Assembly (NCBI RefSeq): GCF_014644455.1 | Contig: NZ_BMKS01000011.1 | Coordinates: 1 to 64,000 of the forward strand | Source of the DNA: Caldovatus sediminis | GTDB taxonomy: Bacteria; Pseudomonadota; Alphaproteobacteria; Acetobacterales; Acetobacteraceae | Direction: 5' to 3' | DNA length: 64,000 bases | In this document: positions 15,115 to 29,724 of the stretch, one piece after another | How positions within the stretch are numbered: the first letter of the stretch is position 1 | Layout: the number at the start of each line of letters is the position of its first letter | Made by a program: the position numbers and the translations under genes | Notes under the pieces: model-generated | Told to the model about the DNA's origin: nothing | The model's input: only the letters and a program-made list of their open reading frames with translations | Database searches by the model: none

Positions 15115-16518
15115 TCAGAGACTGAAGCGGATAGGCACGCGCAGGATGATGCGCGCGCTCGGGGCGTTCTCCGTCGCGCCGACGCTGGCGCCGAGGCTGA
15201 CGCTGACGCGATCGGACGCGCGATAGGAAAGGCCGAAGTTGAACGAGCCGATGTCCAGCCCCGAACCGGGAATGGAGCGACCACCGGCACGGGACGACAG
15301 GACGAACACGTGATCATAGCCGAGGCTGAGCGAGGTGCGCTCGTTCAGGGCAAAGCCGACGCCGAAGTTCAGGCCGATGCCGTCGCCCGGATCGAGGCTG
15401 GTCGGCACGGCCGGGCCGCCCGTCGGATCCTGCAGGCCGACGGTGCGGCCGATGTTCCAGATGTAGCGCGCGCCCCCGAAGAACACCGCCGGGTCGGAGG
15501 CCCAGGCGACGGTGATGCCCGGCTCGATCGACCAGAAGCCGGTCCCCGTGGGGAGTTCCCGCTCCAGCCCGCGCAGGAACCCGCCCCGGGGATCGCTGAC
15601 GAGGTAGATCGGCACCTCGAAGGGGCTGCGGCCGGTATCGCTCTTGACCCGGAGGTTGGCGACGAAGACCGGCCAGTCGTCGAGGCCGGAATTGAGCTGG
15701 TAGCTCGCGCCGAACTCGATGTCGCCGAGGCCGCTGCCGGTCGGGCCGATGGTGATGGGCGAGGCGCTGATGTCGGCGGGCGCGGTCTGGATGGTGTCGC
15801 TCCGGTAGACCCACGGGATGCGCGCGTTGACCTCGAGGCGGTCGGTGATGCCGTAGCGCAGCGTCAACGCCGCGATGGCGGTGCGCCGCGTGGCGCGGCG
15901 GATGTCCACGGTGCCGAAGGTGATGCCGGGGATGATGGAGAAGCCGTTGACCACGGCCTGGGTGCTCTGCGCGTAGTTGTATTCGAGCGACGTCTCGACC
16001 GAGACCATTCCGCGCGGGGTCAGCACGCCGCCAACCCGCGCCAGGGTGGGATCGGTCGCCAGCACGCGCTGCTCCTCCCGCCGTCGCGCGGCGGCGGCCT
16101 CCGCGGCGGTGGAGGGCGCCTGCGGATCGCGCGGGGCAGCGGTCACGGCCGGCGGTGCAGCGGGCGCCGCCGGCGCAGCGACGGTGGGCGCCGGCGGCGG
16201 GGAGGGAGAGGCGACCGCAGACGGCCGCGGGGGCGCGGCGGCGCGCGCCGGCGCCGGGAGGGCGCGCCGTAGCCCTTCGATCTCGCGCGCCTGCGCCTCG
16301 ATCAGACGCTGCTGGCGGACCAGCTGGGCGCCCTGCTCCTCGAGCCGGCGGCGTTGCTGTTCGAGCATCGCCCGCAGCTCGTGCAGGGCCTCCGTCGCGA
16401 CGGCATCCTGTGCGCGCGCGAGCGGCGACGCGACGACCAGCGAGACGACGGCGATCCCCAGCGCGAACGGCCGGACGAAGCGGTCGCGGGCCGCGCGGTG
16501 GCGGGCCGGCGCGGGCAT
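15115..16518 (-). CDS. Outer-membrane beta-barrel with N-terminal coiled coil (FapF-like exporter)
   Basis: 467 aa from the ATG at 16518, with GGAG 9 nt upstream and a signal peptide ending about residue 36 (VVASPLARA). An ATG at 16566 overlapping the regulator stop is an alternative. Residues ~40-87 form a coiled coil (ELRAMLEQQRRRLEEQGAQL). An Ala/Pro-rich linker follows to ~135, then a ~300-residue region of alternating strands ending in Leu (RIILRVPIRFSL). Barrel sequences such as ITDRLEVNARIPWVYRS and GLGDIEFGASYQL resemble the PF13557-type (phenol MetA) barrel family. FapF, the outer-membrane channel of Pseudomonas Fap amyloid, has the same coiled coil-linker-barrel order. With an amyloid-like protein and a C39 peptidase nearby, it is the likely secretion pore. 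Confidence 0.75.
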   Translation of the reverse strand: MPAPARHRAARDRFVRPFALGIAVVSLVVASPLARAQDAVATEALHELRAMLEQQRRRLEEQGAQLVRQQRLIEAQAREIEGLRRALPAPARAAAPPRPSAVASPSPPPAPTVAAPAAPAAPPAVTAAPRDPQAPSTAAEAAAARRREEQRVLATDPTLARVGGVLTPRGMVSVETSLEYNYAQSTQAVVNGFSIIPGITFGTVDIRRATRRTAIAALTLRYGITDRLEVNARIPWVYRSDTIQTAPADISASPITIGPTGSGLGDIEFGASYQLNSGLDDWPVFVANLRVKSDTGRSPFEVPIYLVSDPRGGFLRGLERELPTGTGFWSIEPGITVAWASDPAVFFGGARYIWNIGRTVGLQDPTGGPAVPTSLDPGDGIGLNFGVGFALNERTSLSLGYDHVFVLSSRAGGRSIPGSGLDIGSFNFGLSYRASDRVSVSLGASVGATENAPSARIILRVPIRFSL

Positions 16519-16562
16519 CGGTTCCCGCTCCCGAAGGAGCGCGCGCCCTTCGACAAGGCGGC

Positions 16563-17771
16563 TCATGCGCGCGCACCGGTCATCCGGCGCGGGGGCGCGA
16601 TCCCGTTGCGCCGAAGCATGCGGTACAAGGTCACCCTGGACACTCCGAGGATGCGCGCCGCGGCCGCGACGCAGTGGTTGCCCTGCTGCAGCGCCGAGGC
16701 GAGGAGTTCCTTCTCCTCCTCCGAACCGACCGCCGGGCTTCGTCCGCCTCGCCTGGCCGGGAGCGGCGCATCGTTGGCGGCGGCGTCGGCCGGATCGAGC
16801 GCCAGGTCCCGGAGGCGGATCCGAGGCCCGTTCGCCATCACCACCGCCCGCCTGATGACGGCCACGAGCTGGCGGACGTTGCCCGGCCAGCGGTAGGTGC
16901 GCATCGCCTCCAGCGCCTCCGGCTCGAAGCCTTCGATCCCGCGCTTGGTCTCGCCCGCGATCCGACGCAGGAACGCGTGGGCGAGCAGCTCGATGTCCGA
17001 CCCGCGGGCGCGCAGCGGCGGCAGCTCCAGGGTCAGCACCGCCAGGCGGTAGTAGAGGTCCTCGCGGAAGCGGCGCTCGCGGATGGCGGCGAGCAGCGGC
17101 ACGTTGGTGGCGGCGATGACGCGCACGTCCACCGCGATGGGCTCGCGCCCGCCGACCCGTATCACGCGCCGGTCCTGAAGGAAGCGCAGGAGGTGTCCCT
17201 GGATCTCGAAGGGCAGGTCGCCGATCTCGTCGAGGAAGAGGGTGCCGCCGCGCGCCATCTCGATGTGGCCGATGCGGCGCTCCACGGCGCCGGTGAAGGC
17301 GCCCCTCTCGTGGCCGAAGAGCTCGGCGCTGACGAGGCTCGGCGGAAGCCCCGCGCAGTTGATGGCGACGAAGGGACCCGTGGCCCGCGCGGAGCGTTCG
17401 TGGATGGCGCGTGCCGCCAGTTCCTTGCCGGTGCCGCTCTCGCCGCAGAGCAGGACCGGCGCATCCACGGTGGCGAAGCGGCGCAGCTTCTCGAACACGT
17501 CGAGCATGACCGGGCTGGCGCCGATCATGAATTCGTCCTCGCCGACGGGCTCGGCCTCGGCCGAGGGATCGGCCACCGGCCGCTTGCGCCGCGGCGTGTG
17601 GTTCCGCAGGGCTTCCTCGAGTTCGCGGAGCAGCGCCGCATCCTTGCGGGCGGCGGAAACCAGCATGTCGGCCAGCAGGCGCCGCGGCAGCCATTCGACG
17701 ACGGACGCATCGACGTCGGCGAAGGCGGCGCTGGCCGCCGAACGCACCGGGAGAGCGGCGGGGCTCGGCAA
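16563..17771 (-). CDS. Sigma-54-dependent transcriptional activator
   Basis: 402 aa from a TTG at 17771 that has GGAGG 6 nt upstream. An ATG at 17897 has no ribosome site and adds unlikely sequence. The AAA+ core is complete: Walker A GESGTGKE (110-117), the sigma-54 contact loop GAFTGA (157-162) and Walker B TLFLDE (177-182). The C-terminus has a Fis-type HTH ([19 protein letters not shown]). There is no receiver or GAF domain, only an 80-residue N-terminus of unknown role, so it may be constitutively competent or controlled by another protein. It sits between the pore gene and the amyloid operon, and the amyloid gene has a -24/-12 promoter, so it probably switches amyloid expression on. Confidence 0.88.
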
Positions 17772-18400
17772 CACGTTCCTCCAGACGCATCCGATTCGGT
17801 GGGGCCCAGTGGTATCGCCGATCCCGGCGCCCCCTCGCGGGTCGTGCCCGCCGTTCAAAACGTTACTCGGCGACGCCCAATCGCACAAGATGAACACATT
17901 CCTAACAAGAGTGCTGCCGCGGTAACCAAACCGAGAGGCGATATCACTCGTGAATTTTCGAACGGGGCTTCTAACTTTTGTTATTAACTTTTGTTGGGGT
18001 GCGCCGCGCGGCTTCCGGCCCGCTCGTGCCTTTGTGGCCGAGGATCACGCAGCGACCTGGAAACGCCGGCACGACGCTGACCCCGTGCCCTCCCCGGACG
18101 CGCCGGTGGCGGAGTGTCCCCCGCGAGCGCGCTGACGCCGGCAATGGACATCGCCATCCCCGCGACCTCCTCCGGCTCGAGGAACCGCGTCGCGGTCCCG
18201 TCAGGCAGCCGGAACGGGCGACGCCCCCCTGTCCTTCGCGCCGCTGCCGCACGAGTGGCCATGCGCATCTTGCGGGACGGCGCGCCCTCCTCGTCGCGGC
18301 AGCGCGGTTCTCGCCGGCCGGCATGCCAGCGGACGGGCCGGCCCGCGCGGTCGAGCGGCGCTCCCCGACGGGGATGGCGCCCATACCGCGATGCCGCGCC
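17772..18400. other. Intergenic region with AT-rich tandem repeat, inside the amyloid locus
   Basis: 629 bp without a supported gene. Between ~17870 and 17995 the GC content falls sharply. The 11-mer TAACTTTTGTT occurs twice, at 17972-17982 and 17985-17995 (period 13), as expected for a promoter or regulator site of the activator gene. On the minus strand, ~18085-18268 has a coding-like stretch (RPFRLPDGTATRFLEPEEVA, then MAMSIAGVSALAG) with no clear start or end. It may be a gene fragment, but I cannot support it as a gene. Confidence 0.4.
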
Positions 18401-18910
18401 TCAGATGCGTTCTGGGTTCCCGGGCAGAAGCTCGAAGCGGGTCGGGCTGATCGTCCCCGACACGTCGATCGCCACCAGGGATTCGCCGAGCCGGAACCAG
18501 GCGAAGCAGGTCGGCCGGCCTTCCTGGATCCTCTCCCAGCTCGAGCAGACCTCGTCGCCCTGAAGGACGAGCCGCCCGCGGTCGGTCGCCGCCTGGCCGT
18601 CCACGCCCACGAGCCGCAGCCGCTGCGAGCCGTCGGCAGCGACGTGCATGGTCAGCCGGCTGCCGTTCGGCAGCCGCCGGTCGAGGGTGTTCCCGAATAC
18701 GAGCTGGCGGAACTCGTCGCCGGAAAGGCGGCGGCCTCCGACCACCTGGGGGACCGGTCGCGACGGGCGGGCCGGTGCGGCGGCGACCGCATCCGGCACC
18801 TCGGATGTGGCGGGCCGGGCGGCCGAAGCCGTGCCCGGCTCCGGCGGCGCGGCGCAGCCGGACGCCGCAAGCGCAAGCGCGCCGCTCAGCCGAAGAAGGA
18901 AACGGTGCAT
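18401..18910 (-). CDS. Lipoprotein of the amyloid locus
   Basis: 169 aa. The N-terminus is a lipoprotein signal (FLLRLSGALALAASGCAAP; Cys19 is the lipidation site), followed by an Ala/Pro-rich linker to ~57. A compact domain follows (LSGDEFRQLVFGNTLDRRL, PNGSRLTMHVAADGSQRLRL, VCSSWERIQEGRPTCFAWF) with two Cys that could pair. A similar NG...dG...C..W layout is seen in small periplasmic proteins of unknown function. It is the last gene of the minus-strand run starting at the amyloid gene, so it may anchor or assist assembly in the periplasm. No precise role can be assigned. Confidence 0.7.
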   Translation of the reverse strand: MHRFLLRLSGALALAASGCAAPPEPGTASAARPATSEVPDAVAAAPARPSRPVPQVVGGRRLSGDEFRQLVFGNTLDRRLPNGSRLTMHVAADGSQRLRLVGVDGQAATDRGRLVLQGDEVCSSWERIQEGRPTCFAWFRLGESLVAIDVSGTISPTRFELLPGNPERI

Positions 18911-18931
18911 GGCCTCATTGGTCTCCTGGGG

Positions 18932-19318
18932 TCATCGCAGCACGCGGGAGGTCGAGCTCACGACGCCGTCCCGGGGCGGAAGCGGCTGCGGCGGGCGACC
19001 GATCTCGTCCCAGAAGCGGACGCGCGCGTTCACGCCGGACGGCGCGACCTGGTTCGGCGCGTCCTGCCCGCCGCGCATGCGCCCGAGCATCGCGGGCGCC
19101 AGGGGCTCCAGCCCCTCGAAGGCATCCGGGGCCGCGCGGCCGGCCCAGGCGGGGGCCAGGACCGGGACAGCCGCGTCCGGCGAGACGGAGACGCGGATGG
19201 GGAGCAGAGCGCGGGGCGCCTCCTCCGCACGCAGGGCACCGCCCGCGCCGCCGAGGGGAAGACCCAGCGCCAGCGCGGCGCCGAGCCCAAGAAGGCGAAG
19301 GGACCGTCCGACTCTCAT
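18932..19318 (-). CDS. Small exported protein with Gly-Gly motif
   Basis: 128 aa. The start overlaps the stop of the preceding gene (ATGA). A signal peptide is clear (LLGLGAALALGLPLGGAGGA). The middle contains LAPAMLGRMRGGQ (73-85), a Leu-rich run before a Gly-Gly that resembles the double-glycine sites cut by C39 peptidases. The C-terminus is short and Pro-rich (EIGRPPQPLPPRDG). The gene lies two places downstream of the C39-type peptidase, so it may be a substrate or minor subunit. I know no named family. Confidence 0.65.
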   Translation of the reverse strand: MRVGRSLRLLGLGAALALGLPLGGAGGALRAEEAPRALLPIRVSVSPDAAVPVLAPAWAGRAAPDAFEGLEPLAPAMLGRMRGGQDAPNQVAPSGVNARVRFWDEIGRPPQPLPPRDGVVSSTSRVLR

Positions 19319-19947
19319 CGTCCGAATCTCGACCGGGCCATGAGGGCACTCTCGAGCGCGAGCCGTGCCGCCGTGTTGTTCAGTAGCGACCGCATGCCGG
19401 CGATGTCGAGTGTCACGTTGGTGGTAACGCCGATGGCCTGCCCGTTCGCGCGGTTCTGCACGACGCCGACGATGCCGCCGCCTCCGACCGTGGTCCCGAT
19501 CCGGGTTGCGCCGCCGTTGAGGACGCTCTCGACGACGATCGGGCTCGCGGCGGAAAGCGGCACCCTGCTGGTCCGGCCCTGCGCGTCGGTGACCGTCAGG
19601 TCGGGCGCCGGTCCCGCGCCGATGACGGTGGTGGGCAGGACGACCCGCTGCACCAGGTCGGCGCCGAGGCGCGCCTCGGTCTCGAAGCCGAACGCGACCG
19701 AGATCCCGTTCGGCAGCCGGAAGCCCGCGCGCATCGCGCCCAGGGCCTCGTCCGGCAGCGGATCGGCGCCGAGGGCGAGCGCCTGTGCCGCGGGGCCGAC
19801 GCGCACCCCGAGCGCGTGCGCGTAGGCGGCGACGAGATCCCGGCCCGGCTCTCCCGCTTCCGCCCGATCGGCGGCGCGGGCCGGGCCGGGAAGCAGGCAG
19901 AGCCCCAGGGCCAGTGCGGAGACGCTGCGAAGGAGGGGGCCGTGCAT
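19315..19947 (-). CDS. Exported Fap-associated-type protein
   Basis: 210 aa with a signal peptide (VSALALGLCLLPGPARA, cut near residue 25). Residues 64-76 read LPDEALGAMRAGF, close to the Gly-Gly-like motif in the next gene. A beta-rich section follows (LPNGISVAFGFETEARLG), and the C-terminal third has GIVGVVQNRANGQAI and VTTNVTLDIAGM (159-185). That Q-N-x-x-N-x-Q-x-I then T-N-V-x-L-D-I pattern is the kind seen in accessory proteins of Fap clusters. It lies 19 nt downstream of the peptidase stop and couples to the next gene by ATGA. Likely a periplasmic or surface assembly factor; family name uncertain. Confidence 0.65.
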   Translation of the reverse strand: MHGPLLRSVSALALGLCLLPGPARAADRAEAGEPGRDLVAAYAHALGVRVGPAAQALALGADPLPDEALGAMRAGFRLPNGISVAFGFETEARLGADLVQRVVLPTTVIGAGPAPDLTVTDAQGRTSRVPLSAASPIVVESVLNGGATRIGTTVGGGGIVGVVQNRANGQAIGVTTNVTLDIAGMRSLLNNTAARLALESALMARSRFGR

Positions 19948-19966
19948 CGGTTGTCTCCCTGCGCGC

Positions 19967-20734
19967 TCAGAAGAACCACCGCGTCGGCGGCTCGCCGCCG
20001 TTGAGGAGGATCGGCGAAGGCATGCCGAGCCCGTGGAGACCGCGATCCATCGCCTCGCGGACCAGCGATCCGGGCGCCCGCGGCCGCACGTTCCAGTCCT
20101 CGCCGAGGTTGAAGCTCGCCTGGGCGATCTCGGGGTGGTCGAGGATCACGAACAGCACGCCGCTCCACGCCTCCTCGAAGCGGACGCGCGGCATGGTGCG
20201 GGTACCGAGGTTGGGGTCGGCGATCAGGACGCGGTCCTCCGACAATCCCCGCACGACGACGAAATGGCGATAGCCGTTGTTGTCGATCAGGGCGATTCCC
20301 GGGATGCGCGCCTGCGCGAGCCGCGCCAGGGGCAGGCGGTAGCCGTTCGACCGCAGGCCGCGCCGCGCCAGGTAGTCGCGCATGTCGAGGAGCGAGAAGC
20401 CGGCGCTGCGGATCCGCTCGGCGTCGCCGTGCGTCATCATGTCGCGCAGCACCTCCTCCTCCGACGTCGGCATCCCGTAGTGGTACGTGAGCAGGGTCGC
20501 GAGCGCCGCCGAGCCGCAGGAGTAGTCGAAACGCTGCCGGACCGTGCGGGCGAACCGGCGCGAGCGGAAATCCTGCACCGGCAGCGTCAGGCTGGCGCCG
20601 CCGGTGGCGGTCTCGGTCAGCGCCACGCGCCCCGGCGCCGCCGCGCCGTCGCGCCCCGGCACGTCCGTGGCGCATCCGGCGAGCAGCGCCGCGGCAACGA
20701 CCGCGACCCGGGCCATGGACCGGTGCTTCGACAT
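19967..20734 (-). CDS. C39-type peptidase lipoprotein (FapD-like)
   Basis: 255 aa. The N-terminal lipobox is VVAAALLAGC (Cys21). The C39 peptidase fold is complete: oxyanion Gln67, Cys73 in QRFDYSCGSAALATLLTYH, His157 in NNGYRHFVVVRG and Asp173 in VLIADPNLG. In Pseudomonas Fap clusters FapD is a C39-type peptidase required for fibre export. Here the catalytic residues are all present, so it could cleave. Its neighbours carry Gly-Gly-like motifs that such enzymes recognise. The gene starts 6 nt after the stop of the small companion gene. An internal ATG at 20716 is a possible alternative start. Confidence 0.85.
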   Translation of the reverse strand: MSKHRSMARVAVVAAALLAGCATDVPGRDGAAAPGRVALTETATGGASLTLPVQDFRSRRFARTVRQRFDYSCGSAALATLLTYHYGMPTSEEEVLRDMMTHGDAERIRSAGFSLLDMRDYLARRGLRSNGYRLPLARLAQARIPGIALIDNNGYRHFVVVRGLSEDRVLIADPNLGTRTMPRVRFEEAWSGVLFVILDHPEIAQASFNLGEDWNVRPRAPGSLVREAMDRGLHGLGMPSPILLNGGEPPTRWFF

Positions 20735-20740
20735 GCGGCT

Positions 20741-21076
20741 TCAGCGCAGGGTGATGTTGATCGCGGTCGCGGCCTGGAAGACGGAGTTGTTGCCGGTGTT
20801 CTGGAAGACGGTCGTGACGCCCGCCGTGCCGTTGAGCGAGCCCGTGATGGTGTTGTTGCCGGTGACGCTGTTCGCGCCGACCTGGTTGTCCCGGAGCAGG
20901 GCGACGTTCGCGCCCTCGGGGCCGAGTCCGGCGCGCCCGGAGGCGCGCGCGAGCTCGGCGGCGTCCATCGGTGCGACGCCGGCGAAAGCCTCGCCGATGC
21001 CCTGCGGCTCGGAAGCGTCGGCGGCGCGGACGAGGGCGAGGGCGCCGAAGGCAAGCGCGAGCAGGCCGTACTTCAT
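20741..21076 (-). CDS. Small secreted amyloid-companion protein
   Basis: 111 aa from the ATG at 21076 (MKYGLLALAFGALALVRAAD), with a signal peptide of ~20 residues. The C-terminal half is Asn/Thr/Gly-rich: VGANSVTGNNTITGSLNG, then TTVFQNTGNNSVFQAAT, ending INITLR. This looks like one beta-strand repeat of an amyloid-type protein with an aliphatic beta C-terminus. It could be a nucleator or minor subunit that caps or seeds fibres of the large repeat protein upstream. The upstream ORF extension to 21577 overlaps the amyloid gene and is rejected. Between the two genes lies a strong hairpin. Confidence 0.75.
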   Translation of the reverse strand: MKYGLLALAFGALALVRAADASEPQGIGEAFAGVAPMDAAELARASGRAGLGPEGANVALLRDNQVGANSVTGNNTITGSLNGTAGVTTVFQNTGNNSVFQAATAINITLR

Positions 21077-21135
21077 GGTGCGCAGTCCTTGCGTTCCCTG
21101 GCGGAGTCGCGACACGTGGCGGGTGTTCCAGAGCA

Positions 21136-21159
21136 CGCCGGCGGCCGAGGCCGCCGGCG
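21136..21159. terminator. Strong hairpin after the amyloid gene
   Basis: A perfect 11-bp inverted repeat, CGCCGGCGGCC-GA-GGCCGCCGGCG, 13 nt after the amyloid stop and 60 nt before the next start. There is no T-tract on the minus strand. It is better explained as a partial terminator or an mRNA-stabilising 3' hairpin that would raise the amyloid gene's level over the downstream export genes. Confidence 0.55.
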
Positions 21160-21171
21160 CCTCGGGACGTG

Positions 21172-22173
21172 TCAGCGGTTGTAGATGGCGCCGACCGCCA
21201 CCGCGTTCTGCATCAGGCTGTTGGCGCCCGCATTCTGCGAGACCTGCGCCACGCCGGTGAGACCGTTGAAGGAGTTGGACATCCCGGCCTGGGCCGAGCC
21301 CCAGCTGGCGGTCGCGGCGTTGCCCCAGACGGCGCCGACATTGCCCGCCGCCGCGATCGTCGTGGAGAGATCCTCGGCCGCGCAGTTGCAGTAGGTGATC
21401 GCCGAGAGGGCGGTCGCGTTCTGCTGCAGGCTGTTCGCGCCGACGTTCTGGTTGACGTTGGCCGAGCCGGTGAAGCCGTTGAACGAGTTGGACATGCTGG
21501 CCGCGCTCTGGTGGCCGTGGTCGGCGGACAGGTTCCCCGAGCCGGTCACGATGCCGGCGTTCCCGGCGATCGCCCACGCGTCGCGGTCCTGCTGCCGCCC
21601 GCGGACGTTGTCCACCATCGCGACCGCCGTCGCGTTCTGCTGCAGGCTGTTCGCGCCCGCGTTCTGGTTGGCCTGCGCGATGCCCGTCGAGGAGTTGAAG
21701 GAGCCGTCCATCGACGCGCTCGCCGAGCTGCCCATGTTGCTGCTGGTGTTGCCGATCACGCCGCCGGCGTTGACCGCCACCGCATTGGCGTTGGCCTCGC
21801 CCGTGCTGCCTTGGTGCGGCGATCCCGGGGGAGCGATCACGCAGTCGCAGCCCTCGACATAGGCGACGGCGACCGCGTTCTGCTGCTGGCTATTCGCGCC
21901 GGCGTTCTGGTTCGCGTTGGCGACGCCGCGCAGGTTGCCGAAGCTGCCGCTCATGGACACGCGGTTGCTCTGGAAGTGGCCGGTGGCCGAGCTGTTGTTC
22001 TCGGTCGAGCCGAGGTTCACCGCGAGGGCCGCCGCGTAGTAGTCCTCGACGGTCGTCGGGACGTGGGGGGACGGATTGCCATGGCCATGGCCGCCGCCAT
22101 GGCCCCCGCCGCTGGCGAAGGCCGTGCCGCCGAGGGCGATGACGCCGACCGAGGCGAGGAGAAGCGCACGCAT
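21172..22173 (-). CDS. Gln/Asn-rich repeat protein, functional-amyloid subunit (FapB/FapC-like)
   Basis: 333 aa from the ATG at 22173, with AAGGGG 8 nt upstream. A signal peptide (cut after ~Ala20) is followed by a Gly/His-rich stretch (21-32). Four repeats follow, about 72 residues apart, each with the core NQNAGANSLQQNATAVA or a close variant (88-104, 169-185, 241-257, 313-329). Each core is preceded by an SFN..TG turn and separated by Ala/Gly linkers. The core matches the N-x-A-x-G-x-N-x-x-Q-Q-N pattern of Fap amyloid repeats. Two linkers carry a C-x-C pair (109/111 and 262/264). The gene is first behind a sigma-54-type promoter and is followed by a hairpin, as expected for an abundant structural subunit. 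Probably the main surface fibre protein. Confidence 0.85.
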   Translation of the reverse strand: MRALLLASVGVIALGGTAFASGGGHGGGHGHGNPSPHVPTTVEDYYAAALAVNLGSTENNSSATGHFQSNRVSMSGSFGNLRGVANANQNAGANSQQQNAVAVAYVEGCDCVIAPPGSPHQGSTGEANANAVAVNAGGVIGNTSSNMGSSASASMDGSFNSSTGIAQANQNAGANSLQQNATAVAMVDNVRGRQQDRDAWAIAGNAGIVTGSGNLSADHGHQSAASMSNSFNGFTGSANVNQNVGANSLQQNATALSAITYCNCAAEDLSTTIAAAGNVGAVWGNAATASWGSAQAGMSNSFNGLTGVAQVSQNAGANSLMQNAVAVGAIYNR

Positions 22174-22312: not shown

Positions 22313-22328
22313 AGCAACGGCCATGCCA
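22313..22328 (-). promoter_or_regulatory. Sigma-54 (-24/-12) promoter of the amyloid operon
   Basis: On the minus strand the sequence is TGGCATGGCCGTTGCT. It has the invariant GG and GC with exactly 10 bp between them, and it differs from the TGGCAC-N5-TTGC consensus at one base. The predicted start is near 22302, giving a ~130-nt leader before the amyloid ATG. The sigma-54 activator in the same locus supports it. Confidence 0.75.
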
Positions 22329-22492
22329 GCCCCCGCGCTCACGGCCGGCGGTCGCCGCAAAGCCGCCGCCTTCCTCGGGTTCACGATGCCGTGCGCAACC
22401 TGCGCGTCCATTAGGTATGCGGCTTTGAAATCGTCGCGGGCGGATCCGCCGGCCGAGGACGAGACGGTTTACGTATCGTTAACAGGACCGGT

Positions 22493-22508
22493 GACACGCG
22501 CGCGTGTC
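22493..22508. promoter_or_regulatory. Perfect 16-bp palindrome, candidate enhancer site
   Basis: GACACGCGCGCGTGTC is a perfect palindrome about 200 bp upstream of the predicted sigma-54 start. That is a normal distance for the upstream site bound by a sigma-54 activator with a Fis-type HTH. I see no second copy in the window. Confidence 0.5.
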
Positions 22509-27236: not shown

Positions 27237-27340
27237 GGGCGTCTCCGTCGCGGCAGGGGAGCCTCTGGAAATAGAATCTTTTTCTAAGACCGGGCAATCG
27301 TTCAGGACAAAAAACGAAACTTTTTCATGATTTGCCCGAC
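27237..27340 (-). promoter_or_regulatory. AT-rich promoter region of the ABC/flavoprotein operon
   Basis: About 90 bp of markedly AT-rich DNA upstream of the AhpD-like start. It contains a 7-bp inverted pair CGGGCAA (27291-27297) and TTGCCCG (27332-27338), and a smaller pair TAGAA (27272-27276) and TTCTA (27282-27286). These are plausible operator sites, but no regulator is encoded next to the operon. Confidence 0.4.
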
Positions 27341-27440
27341 TCCCGACAGCCCCGTCGCCCCGGCGGCGAGGCGCGGAGCACGCCGTCGCCCGCTGGGCGG
27401 CCACACGTCAGCAGCACGGCAGCCGCCGGAGCGGGCAGCG

Positions 27441-27519
27441 CCGTTCTGCTCGGCCGCGCTCGCCGCAACGGCCCTCGCCCGCCGTTTGTCGAGCCGATCC
27501 GCGCTCCCGGCCGTCCGGC
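27441..27519 (+). repeat. Dispersed 3'-end repeat, copy A
   Basis: CCGTTCTGCTCGGCCGCGCT, then CGCCGCAACGGCCCTCGCCC, GCCGTTTGTCGAGCCGATCC and GCGCTCCCGGCCGTCC. It aligns with the copies at 34561, 41957, 49287 and 53121. This copy abuts the decayed TonB receptor 3' end in opposite orientation. Confidence 0.7.
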
Positions 27520-27524
27520 ATCGG

Positions 27525-28350
27525 CGCATCGCCGAGGTTCAGCGCCTTGCGCCGGAAGCGCAGGCCGCGCATCGGTCCGTCCCCCCTCCCAGGGGACGGC
27601 GGCGTCGTAGCGGAGATAGCTTGGCACTCGGACCGCGTTGGTCGTGTTGCCGTCGCGACGGTCCACGAAGGTGCGCCGCCACCGATCTGCACGCCATGGG
27701 GCAGGTTGCAAGTGGTCCGGGGCGAGAGGGTGTCGGGGGCGACATCGGCGAACTGGCGCCCCGCCTCGGCGCGGTTTTTCGAACGGACGATCTCCGATTC
27801 GAGCCGCGTGTAGTCCGCGATCAGGTTCCGGTTCTCGGGGATGCGGCCGGTAGCCGAGACCTCGAACCCATCCACCCGCACGATGCCGTCTCGGGCGCCA
27901 GGTTGGCGTCGTTGGCCGGGAGGGCGAGGGATTCGGCCGAAGGGTTGAAGGAGGTGCCCGCCGCGGCATCGGTGCGGACGGTGCTGGTGGGCTTGAAGAC
28001 GAAGGCGGCGCGCCAGGCGAACTCGATATCGGTGCGCCCGAAGCGCTGGCGGGTGGCGCGGTTGTGGTGCTCGGCCTCGAAGTTGTCCCGGCGGCCGCCG
28101 AGGACAAGCTCGAACATCCTGCCGACATGGATGCGGTCCACGGCATGGAAGGCGAGGGTATTGGCCACCGTCCTGGTGTCAGAAGTGACGGTCTGCACGA
28201 TGTTGCCGGTGGCGCAGCGGTCCGGGAACGGCAGGTTGGCGTTGGGCCCGCCGGTCTGGCCGAGGCGCACGGCTTCGGAGGATCCGCGGCCATCTCGAAG
28301 CCGGCGAGCAGTTCGTGGCGCAGGCCGAAGGTCTCGAAGCGGCCGAGCCC
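27525..28350 (-). pseudogene. TonB-dependent siderophore receptor, decayed 3' part
   Basis: Recognisable receptor barrel pieces lie in order but in different frames: FETFGLRHELLAGFEMA (~28340-28290), then GRMFELVLGGRRDNFEAEHH and TSFNPSAESLALPANDANLA (~28130-27890), VDGFEVSATGRIPENRNLIA and SEIVRS (~27875-27780), FVDRRDGNTTNAVRVPSYLR (~27650), and a final LNLGD (~27540). At least three frameshifts and many Trp/Tyr-to-Arg changes show that it no longer makes a barrel. The plug domain is missing. Function before decay: ferric-siderophore uptake. Confidence 0.75.
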
Positions 28351-28354
28351 GTCG

Positions 28355-28635
28355 GGCAGCGCCTCGCCCGCCATCGCGACGCGGGGCAACCGCTCGCCGG
28401 GGTGGTTGCGGGTGCGCAGGTCGAAGCCGGCGCGCCGCAGCCGGCCGATCGCCAGGTCCTCGAAGGCATGCCCGACCGCGAAGATGCGCAGCGTCTGCCC
28501 GAAGACGCCGGCATCGGGGGTGGGCGGGACCTCCGGGAACTCGTACTGCAGGCGCCGCGCGACGACGCCGGTCATGTCGCGGAGGAGGGTCGCATCGAAG
28601 CCCTTCTCCGCCATCTCGCGAAGGGCGATCCCGTC
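28355..28635 (-). pseudogene. Fragment resembling a phage-type conserved protein
   Basis: One minus-strand frame reads DATLLRDMTGVVARRLQYEF, then PEVPPTPDAGVFGQTLRIFA and GHAFEDLAIGRLRRAGFDLR before running into the receptor remnant. The FEDLAIGRLRRAGFDL block resembles phage exonuclease-like proteins. There is no clear start, and the end is lost in the receptor fragment, so this looks like a second broken gene fused by deletion. Family assignment is tentative. Confidence 0.35.
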
Positions 28636-28639
28636 GCCG

Positions 28640-29211
28640 GTCGTCGTGGCCGAGCCACGGTCCCGGGCCGCAGGCCGCGACAACCCAACCCTGCCTATGC
28701 CACAGGTTCGGTCCGAGACACGCTGGTGCCTGCGCCACGGCGCGAGGCTTACGCGCACGCCTCTTCGACCCTTCGCATCGTGTTCGGGGCCTTGCATCGC
28801 GCCGCCGGTCGCGCAACGGGCCGGGCCAAAGCGGCCGCGTCGCCCTCCCGCCGATACGGCGTCGGGCGGGCGCGACGGGCCGGGGGCGATATCGCCCTAG
28901 GGCCGTCGCGCCGGCATCGGCGAGGCGTGGGGCAGCCCGGCCACCACGCGCCGCGCCCGGCCAGGAGGCGGTGCCGGCAGGAGGAGGCCGCCCCTCGCGC
29001 CCGGCGGCGCGCGCCGATGGCGGCCAGGCCTCGCCGGCTCCGCGATCCGGTTCCGGATGCGCTCGGCGCGGCCGTCGAAGGCGCCGGGGAACGGCCGGAC
29101 GATCGCCGGGCCGCCCGCCTTCGCGGCCGGCCGCGATCGGCCGTCCCCGTCGCGGCCCGCCACCCGGGGCAGCCGCCGCCCGGCACCGCGCCCGACCGCA
29201 GTCCGGCCGGC
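28640..29211. other. Stretch without a supported gene
   Basis: I see no gene here. Several GC-driven open frames (for instance 28897-29163 minus) are Arg/Pro-rich without recognisable motifs. It probably represents decayed DNA next to the receptor remnant. Confidence 0.4.
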
Positions 29212-29724
29212 TCATGTCACCCGGTCGAGCTCCTTGTCGTCCAGCGTCCCCGGCACGATGGTCATCGGCACGGTCAGCCGGCTCGCATAGCGGCCGGTCA
29301 GCGCGGTGATCAGCGGGTCCTTCCCGCCGAGCCCCGCGCCGCTCGCCAGCACCAGCACGGAGATGCGGGGGTCCTCCTCGAGCAGCGCCAGCAGCTCCTC
29401 GCGCGGATCGCCCTCGCGGATCAGCAGGATCGGGTAGCCGCCGGTGATCTCCTGCACCTCGGCGGCGAGGGCGGAGAGCAGCTTCTCCGCCTCGGCGCGG
29501 CGCTCCTCCTGCATCATCGCGCCGACGCCGGCCCATTCGACGAGGCCGACCGGCTCGATCACGCGGAGCAGCGCGACGCGCCCTCCGCCCTTGCGGGCGC
29601 GCAGGCAGGCGTACTTCAGGGCCACCGCGCGCTCGGGGCTGTCGTCCACCACCACCAGGAACACCCGGTCGCGCTTCGCCGGCTCGCGGGCGGCGACGGC
29701 CTCCTCGGTCGGTTCGGCGGGCAT
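29212..29724 (-). CDS. UspA-family universal stress protein
   Basis: 170 aa from the ATG at 29724. Residues ~20-160 are one Usp domain: VFLVVVDDSPERAVALKYAC at the start, LIREGDPREELLALLEEDP in the middle and VLVLASG...LITALTGRYASRLTVPMTIVPG at the end. The C-terminus lacks a perfect G-2x-G-9x-G(S/T) ATP site, so nucleotide binding is uncertain. It lies 5 nt after the TIGR02186 gene and completes a three-gene cassette with a TauE-type permease. Confidence 0.88.
   Translation of the reverse strand: MPAEPTEEAVAAREPAKRDRVFLVVVDDSPERAVALKYACLRARKGGGRVALLRVIEPVGLVEWAGVGAMMQEERRAEAEKLLSALAAEVQEITGGYPILLIREGDPREELLALLEEDPRISVLVLASGAGLGGKDPLITALTGRYASRLTVPMTIVPGTLDDKELDRVT

Follow-up and report, generated by a model that had tools for sequence, protein, structure and literature searches.

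A conserved sigma-54 promoter and a candidate dedicated activator at a Fap-like amyloid locus of Caldovatus sediminis

The closest described precedent for the locus studied here comes from Pseudomonas fluorescens. The excerpted text of PMC9207406 describes a -24/-12 promoter for fapA that was mapped by 5'-RACE and depends on RpoN, states the GG and GC elements of sigma-54 promoters, and reports that deletion of rpoN or of brfA, a gene adjoining the cluster, results in lower fap transcripts. The excerpted text of PMC13101488 presents BrfA as an enhancer-binding protein that senses c-di-GMP, and states that factors of the BrfA type are widespread in Pseudomonas. A word search of the main text of three earlier papers on Fap (PMC6173800, PMC3684753 and PMC3792158) returned no mention of RpoN, and none of the matches listed from the open-licence literature dealt with Fap-like loci of Acetobacteraceae under sigma-54 control. 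An earlier note on the present DNA had regarded sigma-54 control of a Fap-type amyloid as a clear regulatory difference from Fap. This is wrong in the light of the RpoN and BrfA control of P. fluorescens fapA given in the excerpts of PMC9207406 and PMC13101488 and, because that control has been reported, our finding in Acetobacteraceae is one of a known regulatory arrangement. Judged by its sequence, the locus described below carries the RpoN/BrfA arrangement over to alphaproteobacteria, in a Fap-like system that has diverged.

The window, meaning the whole stretch of 64,000 nucleotides that was analysed, derives from a Caldovatus sediminis genome of 4.8 Mb in 43 contigs. The gene order on its minus strand is an amyloid-like gene, which would encode a biofilm fibre, a gene for a 111-aa protein, a C39 peptidase gene, three conserved genes, an activator gene and the gene of a FapF-like transporter (Table 1). 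The FapC-, FapD- and FapF-like proteins are, on their model scores, relatives of the Fap components and not equivalogs, since none reaches its NCBIfam equivalog cut-off: the amyloid subunit scored 30 bits against FapC (cut-off 195), the C39 peptidase 150 bits against FapD (cut-off 330), and the transporter 165 bits against FapF across residues 89–386 (cut-off 700), the last with a truncated frame; the transporter query of the scripted comparisons began at a non-start codon. No Pfam or NCBIfam model matched the 111-aa amyloid-like subunit or the 210-, 128- and 169-aa operon proteins (18401–19947), relatives of the latter three existing in other loci, and neither fapA nor fapE had a model match at the locus in these two collections. 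The amyloid block of the window stands ahead of the activator and transporter genes (15115–22173); in C. aquaticus (L002 10001–16967) the activator and transporter genes stand ahead of the amyloid block, in a single direction. The third Caldovatus genome, G002 (78% complete, 760 contigs), returned no C39-protein or activator match at the thresholds applied. Elsewhere in the window, at 27325–29536, inspection by eye shows TonB-receptor-like stretches in overlapping minus-strand frames, which hint at a receptor gene that has been broken.

Table 1. Coordinates of the features discussed, on the numbering of the window
Feature	Position	Strand	Remarks
FapF-like outer-membrane transporter	15115..16518	-	Start 16518 or 16566; PF13557
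BrfA-type sigma-54 activator, 444 aa	16563..17897	-	AAA+ with GAFTGA, C-terminal Fis-type HTH; GTG start, uncertain
169-aa operon protein, lipoprotein-like (by eye)	18401..18910	-	Relatives in closer loci
128-aa operon protein	18932..19318	-	Relatives in L002, L110, L138-L140
210-aa conserved protein, exported (by eye)	19315..19947	-	FapE position from order alone; relatives in many family loci
C39 peptidase, FapD-like	19967..20734	-	PF03412
Second small amyloid-like subunit, 111 aa, FapB-like position	20741..21076	-	Relatives adjoin the C39 gene in most family loci
Amyloid subunit, 333 aa, FapC-like	21175..22173	-	ATG 22173; NQNAGANSxQQNA-type repeats; has relatives
Sigma-54 -24/-12 promoter of the amyloid operon, TGGCATGGCCGTTGCT	22313..22328	-	GG-N10-GC; predicted start ~22302
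Best enhancer candidate, CTGTTAACGATACGTAAACC	22466..22485	-	137 bp upstream of the box; unique in genome
Palindrome of the earlier note, GACACGCGCGCGTGTC	22493..22508	.	Exact, unique in genome; probably incidental

The earlier note had placed a minus-strand sigma-54 box, with exact GG-N10-GC spacing, about 140 bp upstream of the amyloid ATG. The box is present, the C at -12 lying 141 bp from the ATG, and TGGCATGGCCGTTGCT agrees at 12 of 12 scored positions, being exact to the sigma-54 consensus TGGCAY-G-N4-TTGCW. A single rpoN match was found in the genome (E 1.1e-64). A box of this kind could still be a chance match, with the amyloid operon read from an ordinary housekeeping promoter: GG-N10-GC is common in GC-rich DNA, and a loose scan of the window allowing two mismatches gave no excess (6 sites against 7.1 expected), so that GG-N10-GC alone means little. 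However, when the 400 bp ahead of the amyloid gene were put through 5000 dinucleotide shuffles, the full 12-of-12 score arose twice. The strict form of the consensus occurs six times in the whole genome, TGGCATGGCCGTTGCT included. Long ORFs chosen by hand downstream of the other five exact boxes, with provisional start codons, match HisKA/HATPase, SBP_bac_5 (twice), SLT and FlgI, genes that we take to be plausible sigma-54 targets. No second box scoring at least 9 was present ahead of the activator and transporter genes in 16291–18800.

Comparison across loci also speaks against a chance box. In C. aquaticus 18 bases including the box are identical, within an aligned stretch of 74% identity overall (210/284). 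We assembled 29 family loci from C39-protein searches of the bacterial family (found in 16 of 299 genomes, in 7 of 35 in one genus and in 23 of 396 from a draw that overlaps these), plus the window and L002. Boxes scoring at least 11 numbered 24 in the 61.9 kb upstream of the C39 genes, counted on the coding strand up to 2.3 kb ahead of C39, against 7 in the 838 kb elsewhere, counted on both strands. After exclusion of three loci whose upstream region is cut by a contig end (L113, L118 and L123), 26 loci were assessable, and the amyloid operon has a box in 23 of these: 22 score 11 or 12 of 12, two of them carrying two boxes, and L138 scores 10. No box precedes the amyloid gene in L141–L143, where L141 offers only 329 bp of upstream sequence and L143 has a 10-of-12 site inside the amyloid gene that was left uncounted. 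Outside the family, 12-of-12 boxes were found in two Halomonas loci and one Billgrantia locus, and an 11-of-12 box in the Pandoraea loci, which have no half-sites by eye; Nitrococcus, Amphritea and Aquificaceae loci were also scanned for boxes. Boxes scoring 11 or more clustered less strongly in 18 more distant loci, with 5 in 72 kb of upstream sequence and 7 in the other 409 kb, and eight loci of group f66 gave coding-strand candidates of only 9 or 10 of 12. The conservation supports the sigma-54 promoter that had been proposed for the amyloid gene, and at the sequence level confirms it as real and conserved.

The same note had placed a GAFTGA-type activator in the locus, and one is encoded there. 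The GAFTGA motif was read directly in the protein, which matches PF00158, PF25601 and PF02954 (sigma-54 AAA+ domain, lid and Fis-type HTH); its N-terminal part had no Pfam domain match. In a tree of 62 activator rows, rooted at the midpoint only and with the PF07 BrfA sequence absent, the window activator belongs to a 45-row group (support 99/96). Of the 42 rows with a Fap-linked label this group takes in 41, and of the 20 with an unlinked label it takes in 4. The other 16 unlinked rows fall outside the group, as does the linked row L021 (Aquificaceae); on the labels, L194 is scored as unlinked although its locus has an activator-like gene, and L124 comes from a short contig. Included in the group are the eight f66 genomes, which appear to be Pseudomonas-like: their FapD lies above the curated cut-off and their activator gene is reversed after a fapF-like gene, which is the layout described for brfA in the excerpted text of PMC9207406. 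One genome in our collection, G380, has two diverged amyloid loci (L147 and L150), each with its own activator and box.

We then compared the distribution of boxes and activators. Among the 23 boxed loci the activator lies in the locus in 18 and elsewhere in the genome in four (G260, G280, G164 and G219, at 50–61% identity, G219 reaching only 50%; all four lie outside the tree sample). None was found for one: G331, an assembly of 770 contigs, has a perfect box and no activator match at 1e-75. The genomes of the box-less loci L141, L142 and L143 (G348, G336 and G324, all of one genus) likewise had no activator match at 1e-75, and have kept rpoN and the amyloid and C39 genes. The co-absence of box and activator has a Fisher p of 0.0015 by rows, or 0.08 when the three congeners are counted as one event. 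Tree grouping and co-absence support the link between local activator and promoter that had been suggested, and with it the view of the GAFTGA protein as a probable dedicated activator of the amyloid locus. A chance sigma-54 match was rejected on the cross-locus enrichment and the shuffle test; with the co-absence added, transcription of the operon from a housekeeping promoter alone seems to us hardly credible.

For the enhancer, attention had been drawn to a perfect palindrome about 200 bp above the box. GACACGCGCGCGTGTC is indeed an exact palindrome, at the shorter distance of 164 bp from the box. That this palindrome is the enhancer of the sigma-54 promoter, or a second site of the same activator, has some appeal, as it is the only copy in the genome, is well placed at 173 bp from the -24 element and 7 bp off the conserved block discussed below, and L110 likewise has an ACACG-N3-CGTGT repeat upstream. 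Yet such palindromes have roughly the frequency that chance predicts: the window holds eight perfect 16-bp palindromes, GACACGCGCGCGTGTC counted, where 60 shuffles averaged 7.0, and at least one appeared in 154 of 3000 shuffles of the 400-bp upstream region. Furthermore, GACACGCGCGCGTGTC is absent from the C. aquaticus locus and 25 other upstream stretches scanned (26 including the window), despite a C. aquaticus activator whose C-terminal HTH is near-identical by eye to that of the window activator. Comparison of upstream regions in relatives, by which the earlier note had proposed that both elements be checked, shows the box conserved and the palindrome missing. On its chance frequency, single genome occurrence and absence from the relatives scanned, we rejected the palindrome as enhancer; either role for it strikes us as improbable, and it is probably a chance sequence beside a better candidate block.

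That block, CTGTTAACGATACGTAAACC, is most likely the better enhancer candidate on the sequence patterns that follow. The arrangement CTGTTAA-N5-CGTWAA is common to the window, L002, L110, L139 and L140, with a half-site variant in L138. The top three over-represented six-mers upstream in 12 family loci were CTGTTA, GTTACA and GTAAAC. In 10 loci fetched later, which include congeners of the first 12, these six-mers occurred 21 times at -190 to -85 against 2.8 expected, a count as high being reached in 0 of 2000 shuffles, and 2 and 0 times in the stretches flanking this one; the words were fixed beforehand, and the -190 to -85 stretch was picked after the held-out sequences had been seen. Across the 22 family stretches used for half-site counts, which omit L117 as a near-copy of L116, five boxed loci (L111, L115, L122, L147 and L150) lack all six listed half-site words between -190 and -85.

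A different half-site characterises the distant loci. In 12 of the 18, TGTWWCA was counted 21 times at -200 to -80 against 0.43 expected and occurred in 12 of 12, though the flanks of these loci were also raised (3 against 0.29 and 6 against 0.38) and the 12 include several closely related loci. In this count the box of L181, L186 and L188 is the best 9-of-12 candidate; L191, L195 and L196 are omitted for having no placed box, and the omission of L194, L197 and L198 (boxes 10, 10 and 11), seen beforehand to have one or no listed half-site, favours the TGTWWCA pattern. Throughout L181–L193, TGTWWCA pairs, often 11 bp apart (TGTTTCA-N4-TGAAACA), lie upstream of the candidate fap promoter. Such pairs in Pseudomonas-like loci look like a candidate BrfA binding site. 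The 320 bp upstream of the box in the window contain no TGTNNCA half-site, and the CTGTTAACGATACGTAAACC block was for this reason assigned through footprinting and not through resemblance to this motif.

The block also contains TTAA-N7-TWAAC, which resembles the CtrA consensus TTAA-N7-TTAAC, and it might serve a global response regulator, as a site of CtrA type, instead of being the local activator's enhancer. TTAA-N7-TTAA stands at the same place in L110, L139 (followed by C) and L140 (followed by G), and TTAA pairs occur at other places in L112 and L144. Three results point the other way. First, the genome has two copies of TTAA-N7-TWAAC, the number also obtained with the reversed pattern as control, so that no regulon of such sites is seen; on this count of relaxed sites CtrA control was rejected. 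Second, many farther family loci have GTTACA or GTAAAC half-sites at a similar distance instead. Lastly, the block was not found upstream in L141–L143, from the genomes without an activator match, where each locus has one GTTAC near -73 relative to the gene. We regard CtrA control of the block as unlikely.

We postulate that the box at 22328–22313 is very probably a working sigma-54 promoter that drives a Fap-like operon for amyloid secretion, and on which a BrfA-type activator acts from upstream half-sites, most likely those of the CTGTTAACGATACGTAAACC block. RNA polymerase with sigma-54 would sit on the box as a closed complex, and the activator (17897–16563) would occupy half-sites some 140–160 bp upstream, most likely CTGTTAACGATACGTAAACC and not the palindrome. 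From there it would loop to the polymerase via its GAFTGA loop and open the promoter through ATP hydrolysis, the fibre genes being on only while the activator is active. This proposal builds on what sequence comparison yields directly, namely the box, rpoN, the activator grouping, the conservation, the co-absence of box and activator and the half-site enrichment; from these we infer that transcription does start here, that the activator binds the CTGTTAACGATACGTAAACC block and that a signal governs it. Cyclic-di-GMP would be a plausible signal, BrfA serving as the analogy.

A wider reading is that one dedicated sigma-54 activator travelled with Fap-type loci across Pseudomonadota while its enhancer drifted and box and activator were lost jointly, for and against which we find the case evenly balanced. 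In this reading the range would stretch from the alphaproteobacterial family studied here as far as loci of the Halomonas and Pseudomonas types; TGTWWCA pairs (often TGTTTCA-N4-TGAAACA) would have given way to CTGTTAA-N5-CGTWAA in the lineage of Caldovatus; and the amyloid genes would stay while box and activator go together. Our results indicate that the switch of Pseudomonas Fap, sigma-54 with a dedicated activator, is common in the diverged alphaproteobacterial Fap-like family too. They name CTGTTAACGATACGTAAACC as a testable candidate binding block for the activator, remove the palindrome as a wrong lead, and provide a natural contrast in the relatives that have amyloid genes but neither box nor activator.

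Several known systems share parts of this locus. NifA, NtrC and the PEP-CTERM response-regulator activators have the AAA+ and HTH architecture of the window activator, for which the top NCBIfam model is the PEP-CTERM one, all models shown being below their cut-offs. The putative FilB/FilC pilus system is a weaker match, with 114 and 54 bits for the C39 peptidase and transporter against 150 and 165 bits for FapD and FapF. Like the Fap system (fapABCDEF), the window has FapC-like repeats, a FapD-like C39 peptidase and a FapF-like transporter in one locus, although its scores are far below the equivalog cut-offs and the 128- and 169-aa genes are additional. The RpoN/BrfA system that controls fapA-E of P. 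fluorescens PF07 differs in that its activator gene is reversed after fapF, whereas the activator gene of the window runs in the direction of the operon, has the fapF-like gene behind it, and encodes an N-terminal part without a domain match; the half-sites also differ, CTGTTA/GTAAAC in the window and TGTWWCA in the Pseudomonas-like loci. Both nevertheless have a -24/-12 promoter before the first amyloid gene and a Fis-type sigma-54 activator at the locus, and the activators of loci with the PF07 layout group with that of the window.
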